Positions 4,662 through 16,208 of a stretch of DNA of 64,000 bases are shown piece after piece. Numbering within the stretch: position 1 is the first letter of the stretch; each line of letters starts with the position of its first letter. The stretch comes from Silvibacterium dinghuense (lineage in GTDB: Bacteria; Acidobacteriota; Terriglobia; Terriglobales; Acidobacteriaceae), in the NCBI RefSeq assembly GCF_004123295.1, contig NZ_SDMK01000005.1:248001-312000 (forward strand), read 5' to 3'. The notes under the pieces are model-generated. The model was not told the origin of the DNA. It ran no database searches and was given only the letters and a program-made list of their open reading frames with translations. Position numbers and translations under genes: made by a program.

Positions 4662-6176
4662 TTATGGTTTCTTCGTTACCTCGGAAACCGTCGGCAGCTG
4701 TGAAGTGTCCCAGCCTCCGCCGAGCGCGGCAATCAGCTCGACGGCGGACACCATCTGATTCATCTGCAAGGTCGCCAGCGACTGGCGATTCGTCAGCAGC
4801 GTATTCTGCGCGGTGAGCACGTTCAGGTAAGTATCCACACCCGACTTGTAGCGTGTCGTCGCGATGTCCTGATACCGCTGCGCCGAGTCGACGGCAAGCT
4901 GCTGCTTCTGAATCTGCTCGGAGAGCATACGGCAGGAGACCAGGTAGTCTTCCACCTCTTTGAATGCCGTCAGTACCGTTTGCCGATAAGAAGCGACATC
5001 GGCGTTGTACTGCGCCTGGTAGTTCTGCACATTCGCCTTGCGCTGCCCCCAGTCGAGCAGTGTCTCCGAAGCCGAAGCGCCGAGCGACCAGAAGCGCGCC
5101 GGCCAGCCGAGGAGCTGCGTAATATCGGAGCTCTGCGTGCCGGCACTGCCGCTGAGTGAGATCGTCGGATAATACGCTGCCTTCTGCACGCCGATATACG
5201 CGTTGGCTTCGGCCATCGTGCGTTCGGCCGCGGCGATATCCGGCCGCCGCTCGAGCAGCTGCGACGGCACGCCGGTAGGAATATACGGCAGCTTCGCATC
5301 GAGCGGCCGCACCGGCATGGAGAAGGAGCTCGCCGGCTTGCCCAGCAGCAGCGCGATGGCGTGCTCATACTGCGCGCGCGTGATGCCCACGGCCACAGCG
5401 CTTGCCTCAGCCGAACGCAGATTGGTCTCGGCTTCGGCCACATCTTCATCCGTATCGATGCCGGACTGGCGCAGGGTCTTGGTCAGCTCAAGGTACTGCT
5501 TATAGCTCGCAGCTGTGTTGTCATACACCTGCTGCAGCGCGTCCTCTCCGCGCAGCTCGAAATAGTATTGCGCCAGGCTTGACTGCTCGCTCAGCGTCTC
5601 GTTGGCCAGGTCCGCAGCGCTCACCTGCGCCGCATTCTGGTCGGCGCGCAGTGTGTTGCGGACACTGCCCCAGAGATCCGGCTCCCAGGATACGGAGCCA
5701 GCCAGTTCTGTGCTGGTCGAACCGCTGCTGGACTCGAGTTTCGCCGTGCTGCCGCTGCCTGTGCCCTCCCGCGAGTACGAAGGCCCGGCGGTAAGCGAGG
5801 GAAACAGCGAGGCATGCTCCGAGCGCACCACGGCGCGCGCGGCCATGTAGTTCTGGAAATACTGCTTGAGATTCTGGTCGTTAATCAGCAGCGACTCTTC
5901 GAGCTGATTGAGCTCGGAATCGCCGAAGATCTCCCACCACTTGCCGCGCAGCATTGTGTCTTGCGGATTGGCCTGCTTCCAGCCGGTGGCCTGCGCCTCG
6001 GGCGAGCCGGGCTGGCTTTCCTTGTAGGCCGGCGGCGCGGGCATGCTGGCGCGCTGATACTTGGGACCGACATTGCATCCTGCCAGCGCCACGAGCAGCG
6101 CTGCGCCGGCTGCCTTGAACAGCAGCGCCTGGGCGGAATTTCGGACGGAATTCTGTACAGGGGTTCGGGCGTTCAT
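4662..6176 (-). CDS. Outer-membrane efflux lipoprotein, OprM/NodT (TolC-like) family
   Basis: Outer-membrane channel of the tripartite pump, 504 residues, the normal family size. A lipoprotein signal ends LLVALAGC with the lipidated cysteine at residue 34, followed by the family hallmark NVGPKYQRP-like start (NVGPKYQRASMPAPP). Two outer-membrane-efflux repeats follow, including VPSQLLERRPDIAAAERTM and a C-terminal YKSGVDTYLNVLTAQ segment. It is the last of four genes. Its ATG overlaps the stop of the preceding pump gene (ATGA), and a terminator follows. Confidence 0.95.
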   Translation of the reverse strand: MNARTPVQNSVRNSAQALLFKAAGAALLVALAGCNVGPKYQRASMPAPPAYKESQPGSPEAQATGWKQANPQDTMLRGKWWEIFGDSELNQLEESLLINDQNLKQYFQNYMAARAVVRSEHASLFPSLTAGPSYSREGTGSGSTAKLESSSGSTSTELAGSVSWEPDLWGSVRNTLRADQNAAQVSAADLANETLSEQSSLAQYYFELRGEDALQQVYDNTAASYKQYLELTKTLRQSGIDTDEDVAEAETNLRSAEASAVAVGITRAQYEHAIALLLGKPASSFSMPVRPLDAKLPYIPTGVPSQLLERRPDIAAAERTMAEANAYIGVQKAAYYPTISLSGSAGTQSSDITQLLGWPARFWSLGASASETLLDWGQRKANVQNYQAQYNADVASYRQTVLTAFKEVEDYLVSCRMLSEQIQKQQLAVDSAQRYQDIATTRYKSGVDTYLNVLTAQNTLLTNRQSLATLQMNQMVSAVELIAALGGGWDTSQLPTVSEVTKKP

Positions 6177-9100
6177 AGAGCCTCCTGGGGCCGTGCCATC
6201 GGGATCACGGTGTTGCGGCCTCTCAGGCGCAGCCGCAACCGGTCCAGCACGAGATAAACCACCGGTGTGGTGTAAAGCGTCAGCACCTGGCTCACCACCA
6301 GGCCGCCGAGAATGGTAAGTCCGAGCGGCTGGCGCAGCTCGTGTCCGAGACCGGTTCCAAAGGCAAGCGGTACCGCGCCGAAAAAAGCCGCAGCCGTCGT
6401 CATCAGAATCGGGCGGAAACGCAGCAGGCAGGCATGGAAGATCGCATCCTCGCTCTTCATTCCCTGTTCCCGCTCGAGCTGCAGCGCAAAATCGATCATC
6501 ATGATGGCGTTCTTCTTCACAATGCCGATCAGCAGGATGATGCCGATAATCGAGATCACATCCAGCTCGGAATTGAAGAGGATCAGCGTGATCACCGCGC
6601 CCAGCGAGGCCGAAGGCAGCGTGGTCAGAATCGTGATGGGATGAATGAAGCTCTCGTAGAGAATGCCCAGCACGATATACACCGCGCCGATGGCAGCGGC
6701 AATCAGCACCGGCTCATTGCCCAGCGACTTCTGGAACTGCTGCGCCGTGCCGGTGAAGCTGCCATGGATGCTCTTCGGAATATGCAGCCGGTCTTCGAGT
6801 GCGTTCACCTGCTGCGTTGCCTGGTCGAGCGAGACGCCGGGAGCGAGGTTGAACGAGATCGTCGACGACGGATAAAGCCCGGTGTGATTCACCGAGAGCG
6901 GCCCGGTACGCGCCTGGTAGCTGCTGATCGCACTGATGGGCACTGCGCCATCCGAGCCCGTCACGTACGTATTGCGCAGCGCATCCGGCCCTGTGCTGAA
7001 GTGCGGATCTGCCTCCAGCACGACGTGGTACTGATTCAGCGGCTTGTAAATCGTCGAAGGCTGAGCCTGCGAGTACGAATAATTCAGCACGTTGTCGATG
7101 TCGTTCGGCGTGAGCCCCAGCCGCGCCGCGGTCATGCGGTCATAGGTCAGGTAGGACTCCAGTCCCCCTGCCAGCAGATCCGAATCCACGTCCGTAAGCG
7201 AAGAGAGCTTCTTCATCTCACGCGTCAGTATCGGCACATACTTCTTCAGATCGTCGGTGGAATCCGCCTGCAGCGTGTACTGGTACTGCGAGTTCGACTG
7301 CCGTCCGCCGATGTGCAGATCCTGCGCGGCCATCAGGAAGGTCTGCGCCTCCTTGATCGCCATCAGTTTCGGACGCAGGCGGTTCACGATATCGGTCGCA
7401 CTCACCTTGCGCTCTTCGAGCGGCTTGAGGGCAACGAACATGAAGCCGCTGTTCGAAGAGCCCATGCCGCCGCCGGTAAACGCGACGACATTCTTCACCC
7501 CGGGATCGGCACGCACGATGTTCACCGCCCGTGTCACTGCGGCATGCATCTTGTCGTAGGAGGCATCCTGCGAACCCTGCAGGCCGCCCATGATGACGCC
7601 GGTATCTTCCTGCGGAAAGAAGCCTTTCTGTACCCGCGTCAGGTACAAAATATTCAGAGCCATGGTGCAGAAGAACAAGAGCAGCACCAGCCCGGCATGA
7701 TCGCGGAGCACCCAGCGCAGGCTGCGCTCATAACCACGCACCAGCACGTTGAAGGCCCGTTCCGAGGCGTGATACAGCCGCCCATGCCCTTCCTGCTTCT
7801 CCTTCTTCAGCAGCACCGAGCAGAGCATCGGTGTCGTGGTCAGCGAGAGCACCATGGAGATGAGAATCGCCACTGCGAGCGTGACGGAAAACTCGCGGAA
7901 GAGCCGCCCCACGACGCCGCCCATCATCAGGATGGGAATGAAGACGGCAATCAGCGAGATGGTGATCGAGAGAACGGTGAAGCCGATCTCCTTCGAGCCG
8001 CGCAGCGCGGCAGCCACCGGCGTCATGCCCTCTTCGAGATAGCGCGCGATGTTTTCCATCACCACGATCGCATCGTCGATCACGAAGCCCGTGGAGATGG
8101 TCAGCGCCATCAGCGAAAGATTGTCGAGCGAGTAGCCCAGCAGGTACATCGCCGCGAAGGTGCCGATCAGCGACACCGGAACCGCAATGCCCGGAATCAG
8201 CGTGGCCCGCCAGTTGCGCAGGAAGACAAAGACGACCACGACCACCAGGCCGATCGAGATGATGAGCGAGCGTTCGACATCGTGCAGCGAGGCGCGAATG
8301 GTCGTCGTCTGGTCGAGCGTGAGCGTCAGATGCTGATTCCGCGGGATCGCCGCCTGCAGCGCAGAAAACTCGGCCTTGATCTGATCGACCGTGTTGATCA
8401 CATTCGCGCCCGGCTGCTTGAAGATGATCAGATCGATGGTCTGCTGGCCGTTCATCATGCCGCCGGCGCGCAGGTTCTCGGTCGAGTCCACCACGTCGGC
8501 AACGTCTTCCAGCCGCACCGCCGTGCCGTTGTGCTGCGCAATCACCAGCGGCTTGTAATCCTCGGCCTTCGAGAGCTGGTCGTTGGTATGGAGATAGGTG
8601 ACCGTCTGCCCGTTGGTCAGCTCGCCGGTGGGCGTGTGCGCATTCTGGTTCGACAGGAAGGTCGCAACCGTCGCCAGACTGATGCCGTAGTGCTGCAGCT
8701 GGAGCGGGTTGATCTCGACACGCACCGCCGGCAGCGTGCCGCCGCCAATCTCCACTTCGCCGACGCCGCTGATCTGTAACAGTTTCTGTTCCAGAATCGT
8801 TGAGGCCGAATCGTACCGCGCGCCCACGCCTGCTGAATCCGAGGTGATACTGATGATCGCGATCGGCGAATCCGAAGAATTCATCTTGCGATAGGTGGGA
8901 TTCGAAGGCAGGTTCGTCGGCAGATAGGTGCGCGCAGCGCTGATGGCCGCCTGCACGTCGCGCGCCGCCGCGTTGATATTGCGATTCAGATCGAACTGCA
9001 GCGAAATCGAAGCCGAGCCAGTGGAGCTCTGCGAGAGCATCTCCGTAACCCCGGCGATGTGCCCGAACTCGCGTTCGAGCGGCGTCGCCACCGAGGAAGC

Positions 9101-9277
9101 CATCACCTCCGGGCTTGCGCCGGGCAGCGAGGCGCTCACAGAGATGGTCGGCGAATCGACCTGCGGCAACGGAGCCACCGGCAGCACGATGAAAGCGATG
9201 ATGCCGGCAATCGCCACCGCCACAGTCAGCAGCGTGGTGGCGATGGGTCGCCGGATCGCGGGAGCGGAGAGGTTCAT
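6173..9277 (-). CDS. mdtC: RND multidrug efflux permease, MdtC-like subunit
   Basis: Inner-membrane proton-driven exporter, 1034 residues. The N-terminus ([37 protein letters not shown]) matches MdtC more than MdtB. The proton-relay aspartates are in [18 protein letters not shown] (TM4) and the relay lysine in [15 protein letters not shown] (TM10). In enterobacteria MdtB and MdtC form a B2C heterotrimer, and having both genes here suggests the same. It starts inside the stop of the MdtB-like gene and ends inside the start of the outer-membrane gene, both by ATGA overlaps, which predicts translational coupling. Confidence 0.93.
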
Positions 9278-12200
9278 ACTTCTCCTTCCAGCGCCGGATC
9301 GAGCTGAACACGCTGACGCACACCGAGCTTCTCGCCCAGCCAGTCAAACCAGAGATAGATGACCGGCGTGGTGTAAAGCGTAAGCAGCTGGCTCAGCAGC
9401 AGGCCGCCGACCATCGCAATGCCCAGCGGACGGCGCAGCTCCGCGCCGATGCCATGGCCGAGTGCCAGCGGCAGACCGCCGAAGAGCGCTGCCAGCGTGG
9501 TCATCAGAATCGGACGGAAGCGCAGCAGCGAGGCCTCATAGATGGCCTCCTTCGGCGTCTTGCCATGATGCCGCTCCGCTTCAAGCGCAAAGTCGACCAT
9601 CATGATGCCGTTCTTCTTCACAATGCCAATCAGCAGCACAATGCCGATGATGCCCACGATGCCGAGATCCTGTTTGAAGAGCATCAGCGCCAGCAGCGCT
9701 CCAACACCGGCCGAAGGCAGCGTGGAGAGAATCGTCAGCGGATGAATGAAGCTCTCATAAAGCACGCCGAGCACGATGTACACCGTGACCAGCGCCGCGA
9801 TGACCAGCCATCCTTCATTGCTCAGCGAGTTCTGATACGACGCTGCCGTGCCCTGGAACTTGGCCTGCACGTTGATCGGCAGATGCAGGTCCTTCTGCAC
9901 CTTCTCGATCGCATCCACGGCCTGGCTCAGGTGATAGCCCGGCGCCAGGTTGAAAGAGAGGGTCACGACCGGGAACTGTCCCTGGTGATTGACGGTCAGC
10001 GGCGAGAGCGTCTTCGTCGCCGTGGTGAAGGCCGCGAGCGGAATCGGCTGCGCAGCGCTCGTGCTGGTGGAGGAGCTCGAGCTGCCGCCACTGCTTGCAG
10101 CGGTACTCACCGCGGATGTCGTTCCGCTGGTCGAGGCTGTCTGCAGCACCGTGCTGTTTGTCGAAGACGAAGAGAGTGAGCTGGTGGACGAGGAAGTCCC
10201 GAGCGTCGTCGAGTTGCTGGTTGTGCCCAGCGTCGTGCTGTTCGAGGTCGTCGATGAAACGCCGGAAGTCGAAGACGCCGTCAGCTGCGAGGTTCCGGTC
10301 GAGCTCGACGAAGAGCTTGAGGAGCTGCTCGAAGACGACGAGCCGGAGGAAGACGAACTGGTCGAGCTCGAGCTGGTGCTGCTCGGCAGATAAATCTCTT
10401 CCAGGTTCTTCGGGCTCACCTGGAAGCTTGGATCGACCTCCAGAATCACATGGTACTGATTAGTCTGCGTGTAGAGCGTCGTGACCTGCCGCTGCCCAAA
10501 GGCATCGTAGAGCGTGTCATCGATGGTCTGCGGCGTAATGCCGAGACGCGACGCGGTCACACGATCGATGCCGATGTCGATCGCATTGCCATTCGGCTGC
10601 TGATCGCTGACTACATCCTCGATCTGGGGCAGCGTCTTCATCTTGTCGAGCAGCTTCGCGGTCCAGCTGTTGAGCTCCTCGAGGCTCGGGTCCTCGACCG
10701 TGTACTGGTACTGCGTGCGGCTCACACGGTCTTCCACGGTGAGGTCCTGCACCGGCTGCATGTAGGTCTGGATGCCGGTGATCTGCGCGAGCTTCGGTTT
10801 CATACGCTCGATTACATCGGTTGCGCTCACGCCGCGCGTCGAAAGCGCCTTCAGGTTGATCTGCATGCGGCCGCTGTTCAGCGTGGTGTTGGTGCCGTCC
10901 ACGCCGATGAAGGAGGAGAGAGACTCGACCGCCGGATCTTCCAGAATCACGCGCGCCACGGCCTTCTGCCGCGAAGTCATCGCGTCGAAGCTCGTCGCCT
11001 CCGGAGCCTGGGTCACGGCCTGAATGATGCCCGTATCCTGGATCGGGAAGAAGCCTTTCGGGATGACGACGTAGAGCAGTACTGCGCCCACCAGCGTAGC
11101 GGCGGCGATGACAAGCAGCATCGCCTGGCGTTGCAATACCCAGCCGAGCGTCCGCCCATAGAAGGCGATGATGTCCTTGAACATCTTTTCGGACCAGTGA
11201 TAGAAGCGGCCCTGCTCGGATTCAGGCGTGTGCTTCAGCAGCTTGGAGCACATCATCGGCGTCAGCGTCAGGGAAACAACCGCCGAGACGATGATGGTCA
11301 CCGCCAGCGTCACTGCAAATTCGCGGAAGAGCCGCCCGGTGATATCGCCCATAAAGAGCAGCGGGATCAGCACGGCGATCAGCGAGATGGTCAGCGAGAG
11401 AATGGTGAAGCCGATCTCGCTTGCGCCCTTGAGTGCGGCCTCGAGCGGCGCCATGCCCTCTTCGAGATAACGGCTGATGTTCTCGATCATCACGATGGCG
11501 TCGTCCACGACGAAGCCGGTCGAGATGGTGAGCGCCATCAGCGTGAGGTTGTTCAGGCTGTAGCCCATCGCGTACATCACCGCGAAGGTGCCGACGAGCG
11601 AGAGCGGCACGGCCACCGAGGGAATGATGGTCGCGCGCCAGCTGCGTAGGAAGATGAAGATCACCGCGACAACGAGGCCGATGGTCAGCATCAGCTCGAA
11701 TTCGACGTCATCCACCGAAGCGCGGATGGTCGTCGTGCGGTCGGTGAGCACCGTCACCTTCACCGAGGCCGGCAGCGACTCTTCAAGCTGCGGCAGCAGC
11801 GCCTTGATCGAATCGACCACCTGGATGGTGTTCGCATTCGACTGCCGCTGGATATTCACGATGATCGCCGGCGTCTGATTCATCCATGCGGCGAGCTGCG
11901 AATTCTCGACGCCGTTGAAGACATTCGCCACATCGCTCAGCATCACCGGCGAGCCGTTCTTGTAGGCGACGACGATGTTCTTGTATTCGCTGGCCGAACG
12001 GATCTGGTCGTTCGCATCGAGCGTATACGCCTGCTGGGGGCCGTTAAATGTACCCTTCGAGCCGTTTACGCTGGCATCGCTGATCGCCGTGCGCACATCT
12101 TCCAGCCCGATCCCGTAGGCAGAAAGCGCAGCGGGATTCGCCTGGATGCGCACCGCAGGCTTCTGTCCGCCCTGGATCGAAACCAGACCCACGCCGCTGA

Positions 12201-12705
12201 GCTGCGAGATCTTCGGCGCGAAGCGCGTGTCGGCGAGGTCCTGAATGTCGGAGAGCGCCATCGACTTCGAGGTCAGCGCCAGCGTCAGCACCGGCGCGTC
12301 GGCCGGGTTTGTCTTACTGTAGACAGGCGGCACCGGCAGGTCGGTCGGCAGATAGCTGTTGGCCGCGTTGATGGCCGCCTGCACCTCCTGCTCGGCCACG
12401 TCGATGTCTTCCTTCAACGTGAACTGCAGCACGATCACCGACGCGCCACCCGAGCTCGTCGAGGTCATCTGCGCCAGGCCGGGGATCTGGCCGAACTGCT
12501 TTTCGAGCGGCCCGGTGACGGTCGACGACATCACATCCGCACTCGCGCCCGGATAGAGCGTCTGCACCGAGATGGTCGGATAGTTCACCTCCGGCAGCGC
12601 GGAGATCGGCAGCTGAAAATAGGCCACCGCACCCACCAGAAGGATGGCAACCATCATCAGGATGGTCGCCACCGGGCGAAGAATGAATGGGCGGGACAGG
12701 CTCAT
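9274..12705 (-). CDS. mdtB: RND multidrug efflux permease, MdtB-like, with Ser/Thr-rich insertion
   Basis: Inner-membrane exporter of 1143 residues, about 100 longer than MdtB. The start ([39 protein letters not shown]) is MdtB-like. Relay residues are present in [18 protein letters not shown] and [15 protein letters not shown]. The extra length is one low-complexity block, residues about 775-885, made almost wholly of Ser and Thr with a few Gly, Leu, Asn and Val. It lies between KNLEEIYLP and [12 protein letters not shown], where other pumps have a short turn in the periplasmic docking region. Flanking sequence continues normally, so this is an insertion and not a frameshift. It overlaps the adaptor stop by ATGA. 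Confidence 0.94.
10051..10383 (-). repeat. Low-complexity Ser/Thr-rich coding tract inside the MdtB-like gene
   Basis: About 330 bp dominated by AGC, TCC, TCG, ACC and related codons. It encodes roughly 111 residues, mostly Ser with Thr, including an uninterrupted Ser run and a near-duplicated SNSTTLGT motif. Serine codons are mixed (AGC and TCN), so it is not a simple trinucleotide expansion. The tract stays in frame. Confidence 0.9.
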
Positions 12706-13937
12706 CGCGGTCCGGGACCCGCCGGGCCCGCTGCCGAAGCGACGCTTACCTTGGCTCCATCCTGGAGGCGGTCGAAGTTGCTGGTCACCACCGTCTGGCC
12801 ATGCGTGATGCCGGTCACCGCGGTCTTGTCTTCGTCCGCATTCACCACCGTGACATTCGTCAGCGCCACGGTCTTGTCGGACTTCTCCACGTACACGAAA
12901 GCCTGCTGGCCGTTGTACTGCACGGCCACCGTGGGAATCAGGTTGGCATTCTCGAGCGTGCCCACTTCCAGCTTCGCGTTTACAAACTGATTCGGAAAGA
13001 GCGCGTTATTCGCGTTATCGAAAGCCGCGCGCAGCTTCACCGTACCGGTGGTGGTATCCACCTGGTTGTCGAGCGTCAGCAGTTTGCCGGTTGTGAGCTT
13101 GTTCAGCTGGGCGCGATCGTAGAGATCCACCTTCAGCGCCGAGTGCTTCACCGCCTGCATCACCTGCGGCACATGATCTTCCGCAATGGCGAAGACCACG
13201 GTCATCGGGTTGAGCTGCGTGATGGTCGCAATGGTGCTCGAAGAGCCGGAGAAGATCGTGTTGCCGGGATCGACGAGCCGCAGGCCGATGCGGCCGGAGA
13301 GCGGCGCCGTGATATGGCAGTAGGCAAGCTGCACCTTGTCATAGGCCACCGTGCCTTCGTCATTCTCGACCGTGCCTTCGTACTGCTTCACCGTGCCCAG
13401 CTGATCGTCGTAGGTCTGCTGGCTGACGGCGTTGCCCTTGAGGGCGATCTCATACTTCTTCAGGTCGTTGCGCGCCGCGTCGAGCGCTGCCTGGTCATGC
13501 TTGAGCGTGCCCATCGCCTCCTGCAGCTGCGCCTGATACGGCCGCGGATCGATCTCCACCAGCGACTGGCCCTTGCTCACCATCTGGCCTTCGCGATAGT
13601 TCACCGCCAGCACTTCGCCACTCACCTGGCTGTAGACGTTAACCGTATGCTCAGGCGTCACCGTGCCCAGCGCATTCAGGTAGATGTCCATCGATCCCTG
13701 TTCCACGGGCGAGACAGTCACGGAAGTGCCTGCATTCGCGCCGCCCATGCCACCGGGACCGCCCGGTCCACCGCCTGGAGGGCCGCCGGGACCACCGGGG
13801 CCGCCCGCAGGCATCGCGCGGTGCAGGAGCGGCAGCAGCAGTACGCCGACCACCAGCAGCACCAGCAGCCATGCCAGCCAATGTTTCTTCTTCGATGAGG
13901 AGGGAGCTGTGCCTTGCGATGTCTGTTCGTCGTTCAT
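12702..13937 (-). CDS. mdtA: RND efflux periplasmic adaptor (membrane fusion protein), MdtA-like
   Basis: Adaptor linking the RND pumps to the outer-membrane channel, about 411 residues. One N-terminal membrane anchor ([19 protein letters not shown]) is followed by an unusual Gly/Pro-rich linker of about 25 residues. Then come a biotinyl-lipoyl half ([32 protein letters not shown]), a coiled-coil hairpin, the second half ([18 protein letters not shown]) and beta-barrel domains. ATG 13937 is preferred because AAGG sits six bases before it. An ATG two codons earlier (13943) directly abuts that Shine-Dalgarno. First gene of the four-gene operon, divergent from the two-component genes. Confidence 0.93.
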
Positions 13938-14010
13938 GGTCATCCTTAGGAAGAAACTGTGCGCGGAGCAGTGTGCTCTTTTAGGAGACTGCAGAAATGG
14001 GGCGGCGAAC

Positions 14011-14055
14011 GTAATACTGTGTCACGGTTCGTCATCGTATGTAACAGATCGTCAC
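14011..14055. promoter_or_regulatory. Array of five GTMAY pentamers at exact 10-bp spacing
   Basis: GTAAT 14011, GTCAC 14021, GTCAT 14031, GTAAC 14041 and GTCAC 14051 lie in the same orientation, exactly one helical turn apart, in the 178-bp region between the divergent adaptor and response-regulator genes. CpxR/OmpR-type regulators bind direct repeats of this geometry (the enterobacterial CpxR box is GTAAA-N5-GTAAA). The adjacent regulator is CpxR-like, so this is its probable site for controlling pump genes and itself. Confidence 0.75.
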
Positions 14056-14115
14056 GAACCCTACGCAGCGCGAGAGAACAGGCGCAAACTAAAGAAGGTG
14101 AACGCGAACGAAACG

Positions 14116-14838
14116 ATGAGTGCCTCTCCCGGGCCCGCCGAACTCGACACCGTGCTGCTCATCGATGACGACGTCGAGCTGTGCCGCATGCTGCAGGACT
14201 ATCTCAGCCGCCATGGCTGGAGCGTTTCCATGGCCCATCGCGGCTCCAGCGGCCTTACCGCGGCGCTCGAAATGCGCCACGGCCTCATCGTTCTCGACGT
14301 CATGCTGCCCGACTTCGACGGCTTCGAGCTGCTGCGCCGGCTCCGCCACAGCGCCGACGCCGACGTCTACGTGCTGCTGCTCACCGCGCGCGGCGAAGAG
14401 ATCGACCGCATCGTCGGCCTGGAGCTCGGCGCGGATGATTACCTGCCGAAGCCCTTCAATCCGCGCGAGCTGCTGGCCCGCATGCGCGCCATCGTGCGCC
14501 GCGGCGCGCCGCGATCTACTTCCTCCGAAGAGCCCCATGCACCCACGGCCAGCTTCACCATCGACCACGCGGTGCGTACCATCCGCTACGCGGATCAGGC
14601 GCTCGAGCTCACCGATCTCGAATTCGATCTGCTGCACCACTTCCTGACTCACCCGTCGGAGGTGCTCAACCGGGAGCAGCTGGTCGAGCGCATCCTCGAA
14701 CGCCCCTATCGCCCGCTCGACCGCAGCCTGGACATGCTTGTCTCCCGCCTGCGGCGTAAACTCGAAGCGCTGCCCGGTTTCTCCGGCGGCATCAAGGCCG
14801 TACGCTCCAACGGCTATCTTTTCTATCTCGAAAGCTGA
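14116..14838 (+). CDS. CpxR-like OmpR-family response regulator
   Basis: Response regulator of 240 residues. The receiver domain has the acidic pair in LLIDDDVELCR, phospho-acceptor Asp61 in LIVLDVMLPDFDG and conserved Lys112 in ADDYLPKPF. A C-terminal winged-helix DNA-binding domain (residues about 140-238) contains LTDLEFDLLHHFLTHP and the terminal VRSNGYLFYLES. ATG 14116 is chosen because it gives the canonical short receiver N-terminus; open frame further upstream runs into the adaptor gene. AAGGTG lies 15 bases before it, somewhat far. Two bases separate it from the kinase. Divergence from the RND operon and the phased repeats suggest it controls the pump. Confidence 0.93.
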   Translation: MSASPGPAELDTVLLIDDDVELCRMLQDYLSRHGWSVSMAHRGSSGLTAALEMRHGLIVLDVMLPDFDGFELLRRLRHSADADVYVLLLTARGEEIDRIVGLELGADDYLPKPFNPRELLARMRAIVRRGAPRSTSSEEPHAPTASFTIDHAVRTIRYADQALELTDLEFDLLHHFLTHPSEVLNREQLVERILERPYRPLDRSLDMLVSRLRRKLEALPGFSGGIKAVRSNGYLFYLES

Positions 14839-14840
14839 CC

Positions 14841-16208
14841 ATGCGCAGCTTCTTTCTGCAGATATTCCTCTCTTTCTGGATCATCATTGTCGGCATCTTC
14901 ATTGCCGTTACCGTGCTTACGCCGCAAGACGATCCGGGTACCTGGGACGAGGTTCGGGATGCGTTCGACACATCGGTCGATGCCCTGGCAAACACCGCCA
15001 TCGCACAATACCGGGCAGACGGCTGCGCAGGCCTGGCCGCACTGGGAAGCGCCATCACCCTGGCGGACAGCAGCGGGCGCGCAATTTGCGCGCCGCCCCT
15101 TGAAAAGCCCGTCGCCGATCTGCTCCGCCAGGCCCATGAAGAACCCCATCCCGTTTCCCTGCGTGAGCAGGGCTGGTGGGTGCAGGCGCGCCAGGTCCGC
15201 ATCAAGAGCGGCGAGTACTACTACTTCATCCAGCGCATCCATGACCCGCAGCGGCCCTGGTGGCCGCATCTACCGGCAGTTGCCCTGCCGATCTCGATCA
15301 TCGTCACCTTTTTCTTTGCCTACATCCTCACGCGGCCGGTTCGTGCGCTCCGGCGAGCTTTCCGCCGCTTCTCGGCCGGCGACATGGATGTCCGCCTCCC
15401 CGTCGCGCCCTCGCGCTGGAAGGATTTCGGCGGCGCCGATGTGCGCACCCTGATGATCGACTTCAACCACATGGCCGACCGCATTCGCGAGCTGGTGGAA
15501 GCCCAGAAGCTGCTCATCCGCGATATCTCCCACGAGCTCCGTTCGCCGCTCGCCCGCCTGCAGGTTGCTCTCGAGATTGCCCGGGAAGAATCCCCCGAAT
15601 CCTCGGCGCTGATGGATCGCGTCTCCGCGGAAGCCGACCGCCTCAATGCGCTGATCGGCGAAACACTGCGGCTCTCGCTGCTCGAATCCCTGCGTCAGCC
15701 TCCCAGCGACGAGACCTTTACTCTCGGCGATATCTTCGCCCTGCTGCTGCCGGATATGCGCTTCGAGGCCGAGGCGCGCGGCACCCGCGTCACCTACAGC
15801 TCGGCGTGCGATACGCTGCGGCTCCAAGGCCAGTCCGAGCTGCTGCGCCGCGCGCTCGAAAACATCATTCGCAACGCCATCCGTTACACGCCGGCCGGCG
15901 GCGTAGTCGAGATCGCTGCAACCTGCCACATGCATCCGGTCACCTCCAGCGCTACCCCGATCTGGATCGAGATCCTCATCGCCGACCGCGGCCCCGGCAT
16001 CCCTGAGCAGTATCTTTCCGAGATCTTCCGCCCCTTCTATCGCGTCGACATGGCCCGCGAAGGCACGACCGGCGGCTTCGGCGTCGGCCTCGCCATTGCC
16101 GAGCGCGCCATCCACCTGCACTCCGGCAGCATCCGCGTAGAAAACCGCCGCGGCGGCGGCCTCACCGTCTTCGTACGCCTGCCCAGCCTTTCGCCTGCTC
16201 AGCACTGA
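14841..16208 (+). CDS. CpxA-like sensor histidine kinase
   Basis: Membrane sensor kinase of 455 residues, partner of the response regulator two bases upstream. TM1 spans about residues 7-28. A short periplasmic domain of about 115 residues follows, then TM2 about 146-164 and a HAMP linker. The phospho-acceptor His231 is in RDISHELRSPLARLQVAL, close to the CpxA H-box. The ATPase domain shows the N box (LENIIRNAIRYTP), G1 (DRGPGIP), F box (IFRPFYR) and G2 (GGFGVGLAIAERAI). The stimulus is probably envelope stress or pump substrate; this is inferred from CpxA similarity and neighbours only. Confidence 0.93.
   Translation: MRSFFLQIFLSFWIIIVGIFIAVTVLTPQDDPGTWDEVRDAFDTSVDALANTAIAQYRADGCAGLAALGSAITLADSSGRAICAPPLEKPVADLLRQAHEEPHPVSLREQGWWVQARQVRIKSGEYYYFIQRIHDPQRPWWPHLPAVALPISIIVTFFFAYILTRPVRALRRAFRRFSAGDMDVRLPVAPSRWKDFGGADVRTLMIDFNHMADRIRELVEAQKLLIRDISHELRSPLARLQVALEIAREESPESSALMDRVSAEADRLNALIGETLRLSLLESLRQPPSDETFTLGDIFALLLPDMRFEAEARGTRVTYSSACDTLRLQGQSELLRRALENIIRNAIRYTPAGGVVEIAATCHMHPVTSSATPIWIEILIADRGPGIPEQYLSEIFRPFYRVDMAREGTTGGFGVGLAIAERAIHLHSGSIRVENRRGGGLTVFVRLPSLSPAQH

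Follow-up and report, generated by a model that had tools for sequence, protein, structure and literature searches.

A conserved array of GTMAY half-sites as the predicted operator of a CpxR-like response regulator beside an RND pump operon in Silvibacterium dinghuense

Described multi-box operators and the setting of the array

The F and C sites of OmpR at ompF and ompC comprise several boxes. Several repeated tor boxes are likewise described for TorR (PMC9239176), and the pho box of PhoB, built from TGTCA tracts (PMC6194859), occurs in multiple copies at ugp (PMC4415409), so that operators with more than two half-sites are a known kind. The box of Escherichia coli CpxR is GTAAA-N5-6-GTAAA (PMC9600279) and that of RstA is TACATNTNGTTACA; in the structure of RstA with DNA, Arg208 is among the residues that determine which bases are recognised (PMC4117788). 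Among the open-licence papers searched, we found no relevant paper on CpxR in Acidobacteria.

We analysed a 64,000-nucleotide stretch of the S. dinghuense genome (the window), for which the initial annotation had described five GTMAY pentamers in exact 10-bp phase between a CpxRA-like pair and an RND operon. The positions of the pentamers could be confirmed letter by letter, and the setting is as described, with the response regulator (RR) gene on one side (plus strand) and the RND adaptor gene on the other (minus strand). The features of the locus are the following:

4662-6176, minus strand: probable outer-membrane factor of the pump, 504 aa (open reading frame, sequence inspection alone)
6173-9277, minus strand: RND permease, MdtC-like (models)
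9274-12705, minus strand: RND permease, MdtB/MuxB-like (models)
12702-13943, minus strand: RND periplasmic adaptor, MdtA/MuxA-like (models)
13976-13988, minus strand: conserved block around an A located 28 bp before the first unit, candidate -10 of the RND operon
14011-14055, plus strand (toward the RR gene): five-unit GTMAY array (sequence, shuffles, four-unit arrays of orthologs)
14011-14020, plus strand: distal fifth unit, GTAATACTGT (exact 10-bp insertion when aligned with the four nearest homologs, whose arrays have four units)
14082-14093, plus strand: conserved element GCGCAAACTAAA, candidate -10 of the RR promoter (distance to the start of the last unit, 31 bp)
14116-14838, plus strand: OmpR/PhoB-family RR, CpxR-like, 240 aa (profile models and tree)
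14841-16208, plus strand: sensor histidine kinase, 455 aa (closest to CpxA models)

The pentamers GTAAT, GTCAC, GTCAT, GTAAC and GTCAC start at 14011, 14021, 14031, 14041 and 14051, and the whole array reads GTAATACTGT GTCACGGTTC GTCATCGTAT GTAACAGATC GTCAC. It is located mid-way in the 172-bp intergenic space; the start codon of the RR (14116, plus strand) is 60 bp away and that of the adaptor (13943, minus strand) 67 bp.

The RR consists of a receiver and a C-terminal winged helix (PF00072, 2.7e-24; PF00486, 2.2e-18; both above cut-off), and it scores below the cut-offs of both the NCBIfam CpxR equivalog (171 bits vs 341) and the OmpR model (196 bits). When seven E. coli regulators were included in a tree, a fork supported at 97/92 joined the window RR and E. 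coli CpxR and left out OmpR, RstA, PhoB, BaeR, CreB and ArcA; since the E. coli CpxR branch is long, this placement is insecure and supports the grouping rather than proving it. The best models of the kinase are two CpxA equivalogs, matched over the full length with 246 and 222 bits, both below cut-off. The pump genes show the MdtABC-type layout of an adaptor and two different RND permeases in one operon, and their best models are MdtA/MuxA, MdtB/MuxB and MdtC, yet again below the equivalog cut-offs. The MdtB-like permease contains a Ser/Thr-rich low-complexity insert of about 100 residues, which is unusual for an RND permease.

Compared with the described systems, the array resembles the E. 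coli CpxR box in its direct repeats with a GTMA core at 10 or 11 bp, which E. coli also carries upstream of its cpxR gene. However, the E. coli sites consist of two units, whereas the window has five and most homologs have four; E. coli combines GTAAA with Asn at the specificity position, the window GTMAY with Arg; and the cpxP layout is not matched, the divergent gene of the window being an RND adaptor. The likeness to GTAAA-N5-GTAAA proposed in the initial annotation thus holds for the N5 spacing but not for the units, none of which is GTAAA. The reverse complement of the RstA box, TGTAAC-NANA-TGTA, contains the same GTAAC unit as the window and RstA has Arg at the same helix position, but its box has two units and RstA falls outside the clade of the window RR. 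PhoB shares tandem head-to-tail half-sites, Arg at this position, multi-box promoters and autoregulation, but uses an 11-bp repeat and belongs to another RR subfamily. TorR and OmpR also bind several direct-repeat boxes at one promoter, but with other consensus sequences, as members of other RR subfamilies and without a divergent RR/RND region. In E. coli, a two-component system likewise adjoins an MdtABC-type pump (BaeSR-mdtABC), but BaeR lies outside the clade of the window RR, and the genes are co-directional without an array between divergent genes.

Uniqueness, conservation and flanks of the array

Even with two mismatches allowed, the five-unit pattern matched only once in the window and in none of 100 dinucleotide shuffles of it. 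A genome-wide search for the 10-bp-periodic motif, which had been suggested with the initial annotation, returned an exact four-unit GTMAY match at the window array only (5.1 Mb; reversed-pattern controls, 0), and allowing two mismatches added a single place, C6:39298-39332, which deviates by one mismatch (control matches, 1). Among 398 genomes of the family, the five-unit GTMA pattern matched the window array and three other places, all three of them simple tandem repeats of nearly identical 10-bp units; apart from such repeats, a five-unit array was found in the window genome only.

The additional place on contig C6 (L149 = G000:C6:36500-42500, 2799-2833) is a minus-strand array of four units, GTCAC, GTCAA, GTCAC and GTCAC, followed at 32 bp by GGCGCAAACC, which is much like the RR-side element of the window. 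We did not see a clear start codon just downstream of this array, whose target is possibly a small RNA or a short gene. A paralogous RR of the same genome (L189, G000:C6:17649-18726) is likewise preceded by an array, which consists of four GTCAA units (spacings 10, 11, 10).

The RR was then searched in 150 genomes of the family, and 300 bp upstream were read for the 30 best matches and for 40 more across the identity range. At least three in-phase GTMA units (10 or 11 bp) precede 35 of the 50 RRs with at least 46% identity, 32 of which have at least four, vs 0 of 20 less similar OmpR-family RRs (<46%) of the same bacterial family (Fisher P 4e-8, ignoring the relatedness of the genomes). In shuffled upstream regions, 0.02 of 50 would be expected to carry three or more units, and spacings other than 10/11 give at most one array, with the 9/10 result reflecting the same 10-bp steps. 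Four-unit arrays are located 50-180 bp upstream of the orthologous CpxR-like RR in many genera, including the two closest homologs (62% identity, another genus; L004, L005). Throughout 250 genomes the four-unit pattern matched 45 times vs 10 for the reversed pattern, and 15 of 30 matching loci lie no more than 350 bp upstream of a CpxR-like RR.

The arrays come in two forms, GTMAY at 10, 10, 10 as in the window and GTAAA-N6-GTCAA-N5-GTAAA-N5-GTAAA (11, 10, 10). The second form is often succeeded by two units on the opposite strand, and a four-plus-two layout of this kind, with the forward array first and a two-unit array on the opposite strand after it (e.g. GTAAAGAATTGTCAA), is present in many homologs (L010, L013, L016, L032 and others). 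Two Arg-type RRs from the clade of the window RR (L183, L184) have no array, and none of eight other genomes of the same genus contains a close RR ortholog (best 48% in G005 and 43% in G001; nearest adaptors, 45-51% identity). A sample of 80 CpxR-like RRs, drawn from many phyla, included 28 with two units in phase (vs 2 expected), and four-unit arrays were present in four acidobacterial records only.

The phasing thus proved to be conserved in orthologous intergenic regions, both in register and in place, and the proposed link between direct repeats of the OmpR/CpxR kind and the adjoining RR is borne out by their presence upstream of orthologs, though not of other RR subfamilies, and by the recognition-helix covariation described below. 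Since relatives carry a four-unit version before the same RR gene, the array is most likely a docking site of this regulator itself, as predicted from sequence. From this we conclude that the array is real and conserved and that it belongs to a kind of operator already known, of which it is an extended version. Five units are indeed more than the usual two, but their rarity had been overstated, because four are the norm in this RR group and several-box arrays are known for TorR, OmpR and PhoB.

Both edges of the array keep fixed distances to conserved flanks. On the RR side, the distance between the start of the last unit and a GCGCARACT-like element is 31 bp in the window and in G039 and G153 (the latter with the reading GAGCACACT), and 30 bp in G196; the close homolog G146 lacks this element. 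On the pump side, the conserved block aligns 28 or 29 bp from the first unit in all five closest arrays, and an A at -28 is present in 21 of 21 aligned GTMAY-type arrays. As these distances are fixed, the extra unit of the window represents an exact 10-bp insertion. A scan of the intergenic region for consensus sigma-70 promoters found none; 14082-14093 and 13976-13988 are possible -10 regions by their conservation only, in which case the array edges would lie near -45 of both promoters, and the vicinity of -45 is the usual position of activators of the OmpR family.

Covariation of the recognition helix with the fifth base

The residue at the position of R211 in the window RR, which aligns with Arg208 of RstA, varies together with the fifth base of the units. 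Where it is Arg, as also in RstA and PhoB, the fifth base is C or T in 38 of 44 units (GTMAY, as in the window); with Lys it is A in 94 of 97 units, and with Asn, the residue of E. coli CpxR, in 10 of 11 (both GTMAA). In the tree, most Arg-type RRs form one clade, and L177, an Arg-type RR with GTAAC units, is placed inside the Lys/GTAAA clade, which makes it, as judged from the sequences, a second independent case of the Arg/GTMAY covariation.

Predicted function, alternatives and meaning

Taken together, we consider it highly probable that the array is the operator of the adjacent CpxR-like RR, with head-to-tail half-sites, autoactivation and probable control of the pump. A single winged-helix DNA-binding domain would occupy each GTMAY pentamer as its half-site, and neighbouring domains, spaced by about one turn, would follow one another head-to-tail along the same face of the helix. 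Four half-sites may be taken up by two phosphorylated dimers, the extra unit of the window offering one more contact; both binding and its dependence on phosphorylation are predictions. The bound RR most likely activates, rather than represses, its own RR-kinase operon, because the last unit lies upstream of a -10-like element at a distance typical of activators. Since the first unit has a similar distance to the conserved element before the adaptor gene, the same bound array probably also sets the expression of the pump.

The main competing explanation, which appears rather unlikely but deserves serious weight, is that the array serves the autoregulation of the RR-kinase pair only and that the RND operon is adjacent by chance and under its own control. 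The arrays do point toward the RR, and they are kept without an adjacent RND operon in G153, L005, L009, L010, L011 and others, so that pump control is not an ancestral constant. On the other hand, a divergent MdtABC-like RND operon stays beside the array in three other genomes (G039, G196, G146), the pump-side distance is fixed at 28-29 bp, and in genus g7 (L145, L146, L147) four-unit arrays precede RND adaptors by 184-253 bp at loci where no RR is adjacent. These g7 arrays and adaptor genes sit directly after a leuD-like gene. The earlier claim that the array controls both divergent promoters thereby receives indirect support, from the distances at both edges and from the kept and independent association with RND genes. 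Because the array accompanies the RR even at loci that have no pump next to it, the ancestral role was probably autoregulation, to which control of the pump was added.

It is improbable that some other OmpR-family regulator encoded in the genome, such as the paralogs C6:17649 or C1:1713608, recognises the array. They share the fold, and the C6 paralog has an array of four units, but this array is of the GTCAA type and its RR carries Asn as the specificity residue, no array precedes the C1 RR, and across genera the arrays track the adjacent RR. Still less probable is the filament-like binding once proposed, here taken as an RR filament that is nucleated at the five half-sites, spreads and silences or bridges the intergenic space: more than four half-sites are indeed in phase, but the homologs have four, no units extend beyond the array edges, and the fixed distances from these edges to the flanking elements suit a defined complex and not spreading. 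A chance alignment of short words is hardly credible for the array as a whole. The fifth unit alone would be expected at either edge about once in 256 cases and could therefore be accidental, but the conserved flanks on both sides show it to be a clean insertion of 10 bp; for the four-unit core, a chance origin is refuted, with no match in 100 shuffles and in-phase conservation upstream of homologs.

Returning to the operator of the adjacent RR, we tentatively propose, as one joint hypothesis that may well fail in some part, that acidobacterial CpxR-like regulators use fixed-length arrays of four or five half-sites as one oligomeric platform for two divergent promoters simultaneously, that array length evolves by steps of exactly 10 bp, which preserves the distance and the helical face of both promoters, and that a single recognition-helix residue (Arg vs Lys/Asn) determines the fifth base throughout the array.

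Further arrays are located before or beside genes for lipoproteins, outer-membrane beta-barrel and carboxypeptidase-regulatory-like proteins and secreted proteases, an envelope-themed set of neighbours. In three genomes (L150, L153, L155), arrays are located beside large secreted proteases with pro-kumamolisin domains.

Three points are new here: the length of four units is conserved in this RR group, the five-unit case represents the exact insertion of one unit, and a rule links residue and base. With the arrays, the operator becomes readable for an entire group of so far uncharacterised two-component systems of soil bacteria, and their regulons, including RND pumps as well as outer-membrane and secreted proteins, are predictable from sequence. 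The natural series of operators with two, four and five units bears on how RRs of this family assemble on more than two half-sites, and the Arg/Lys covariation yields a specificity rule that is directly testable.
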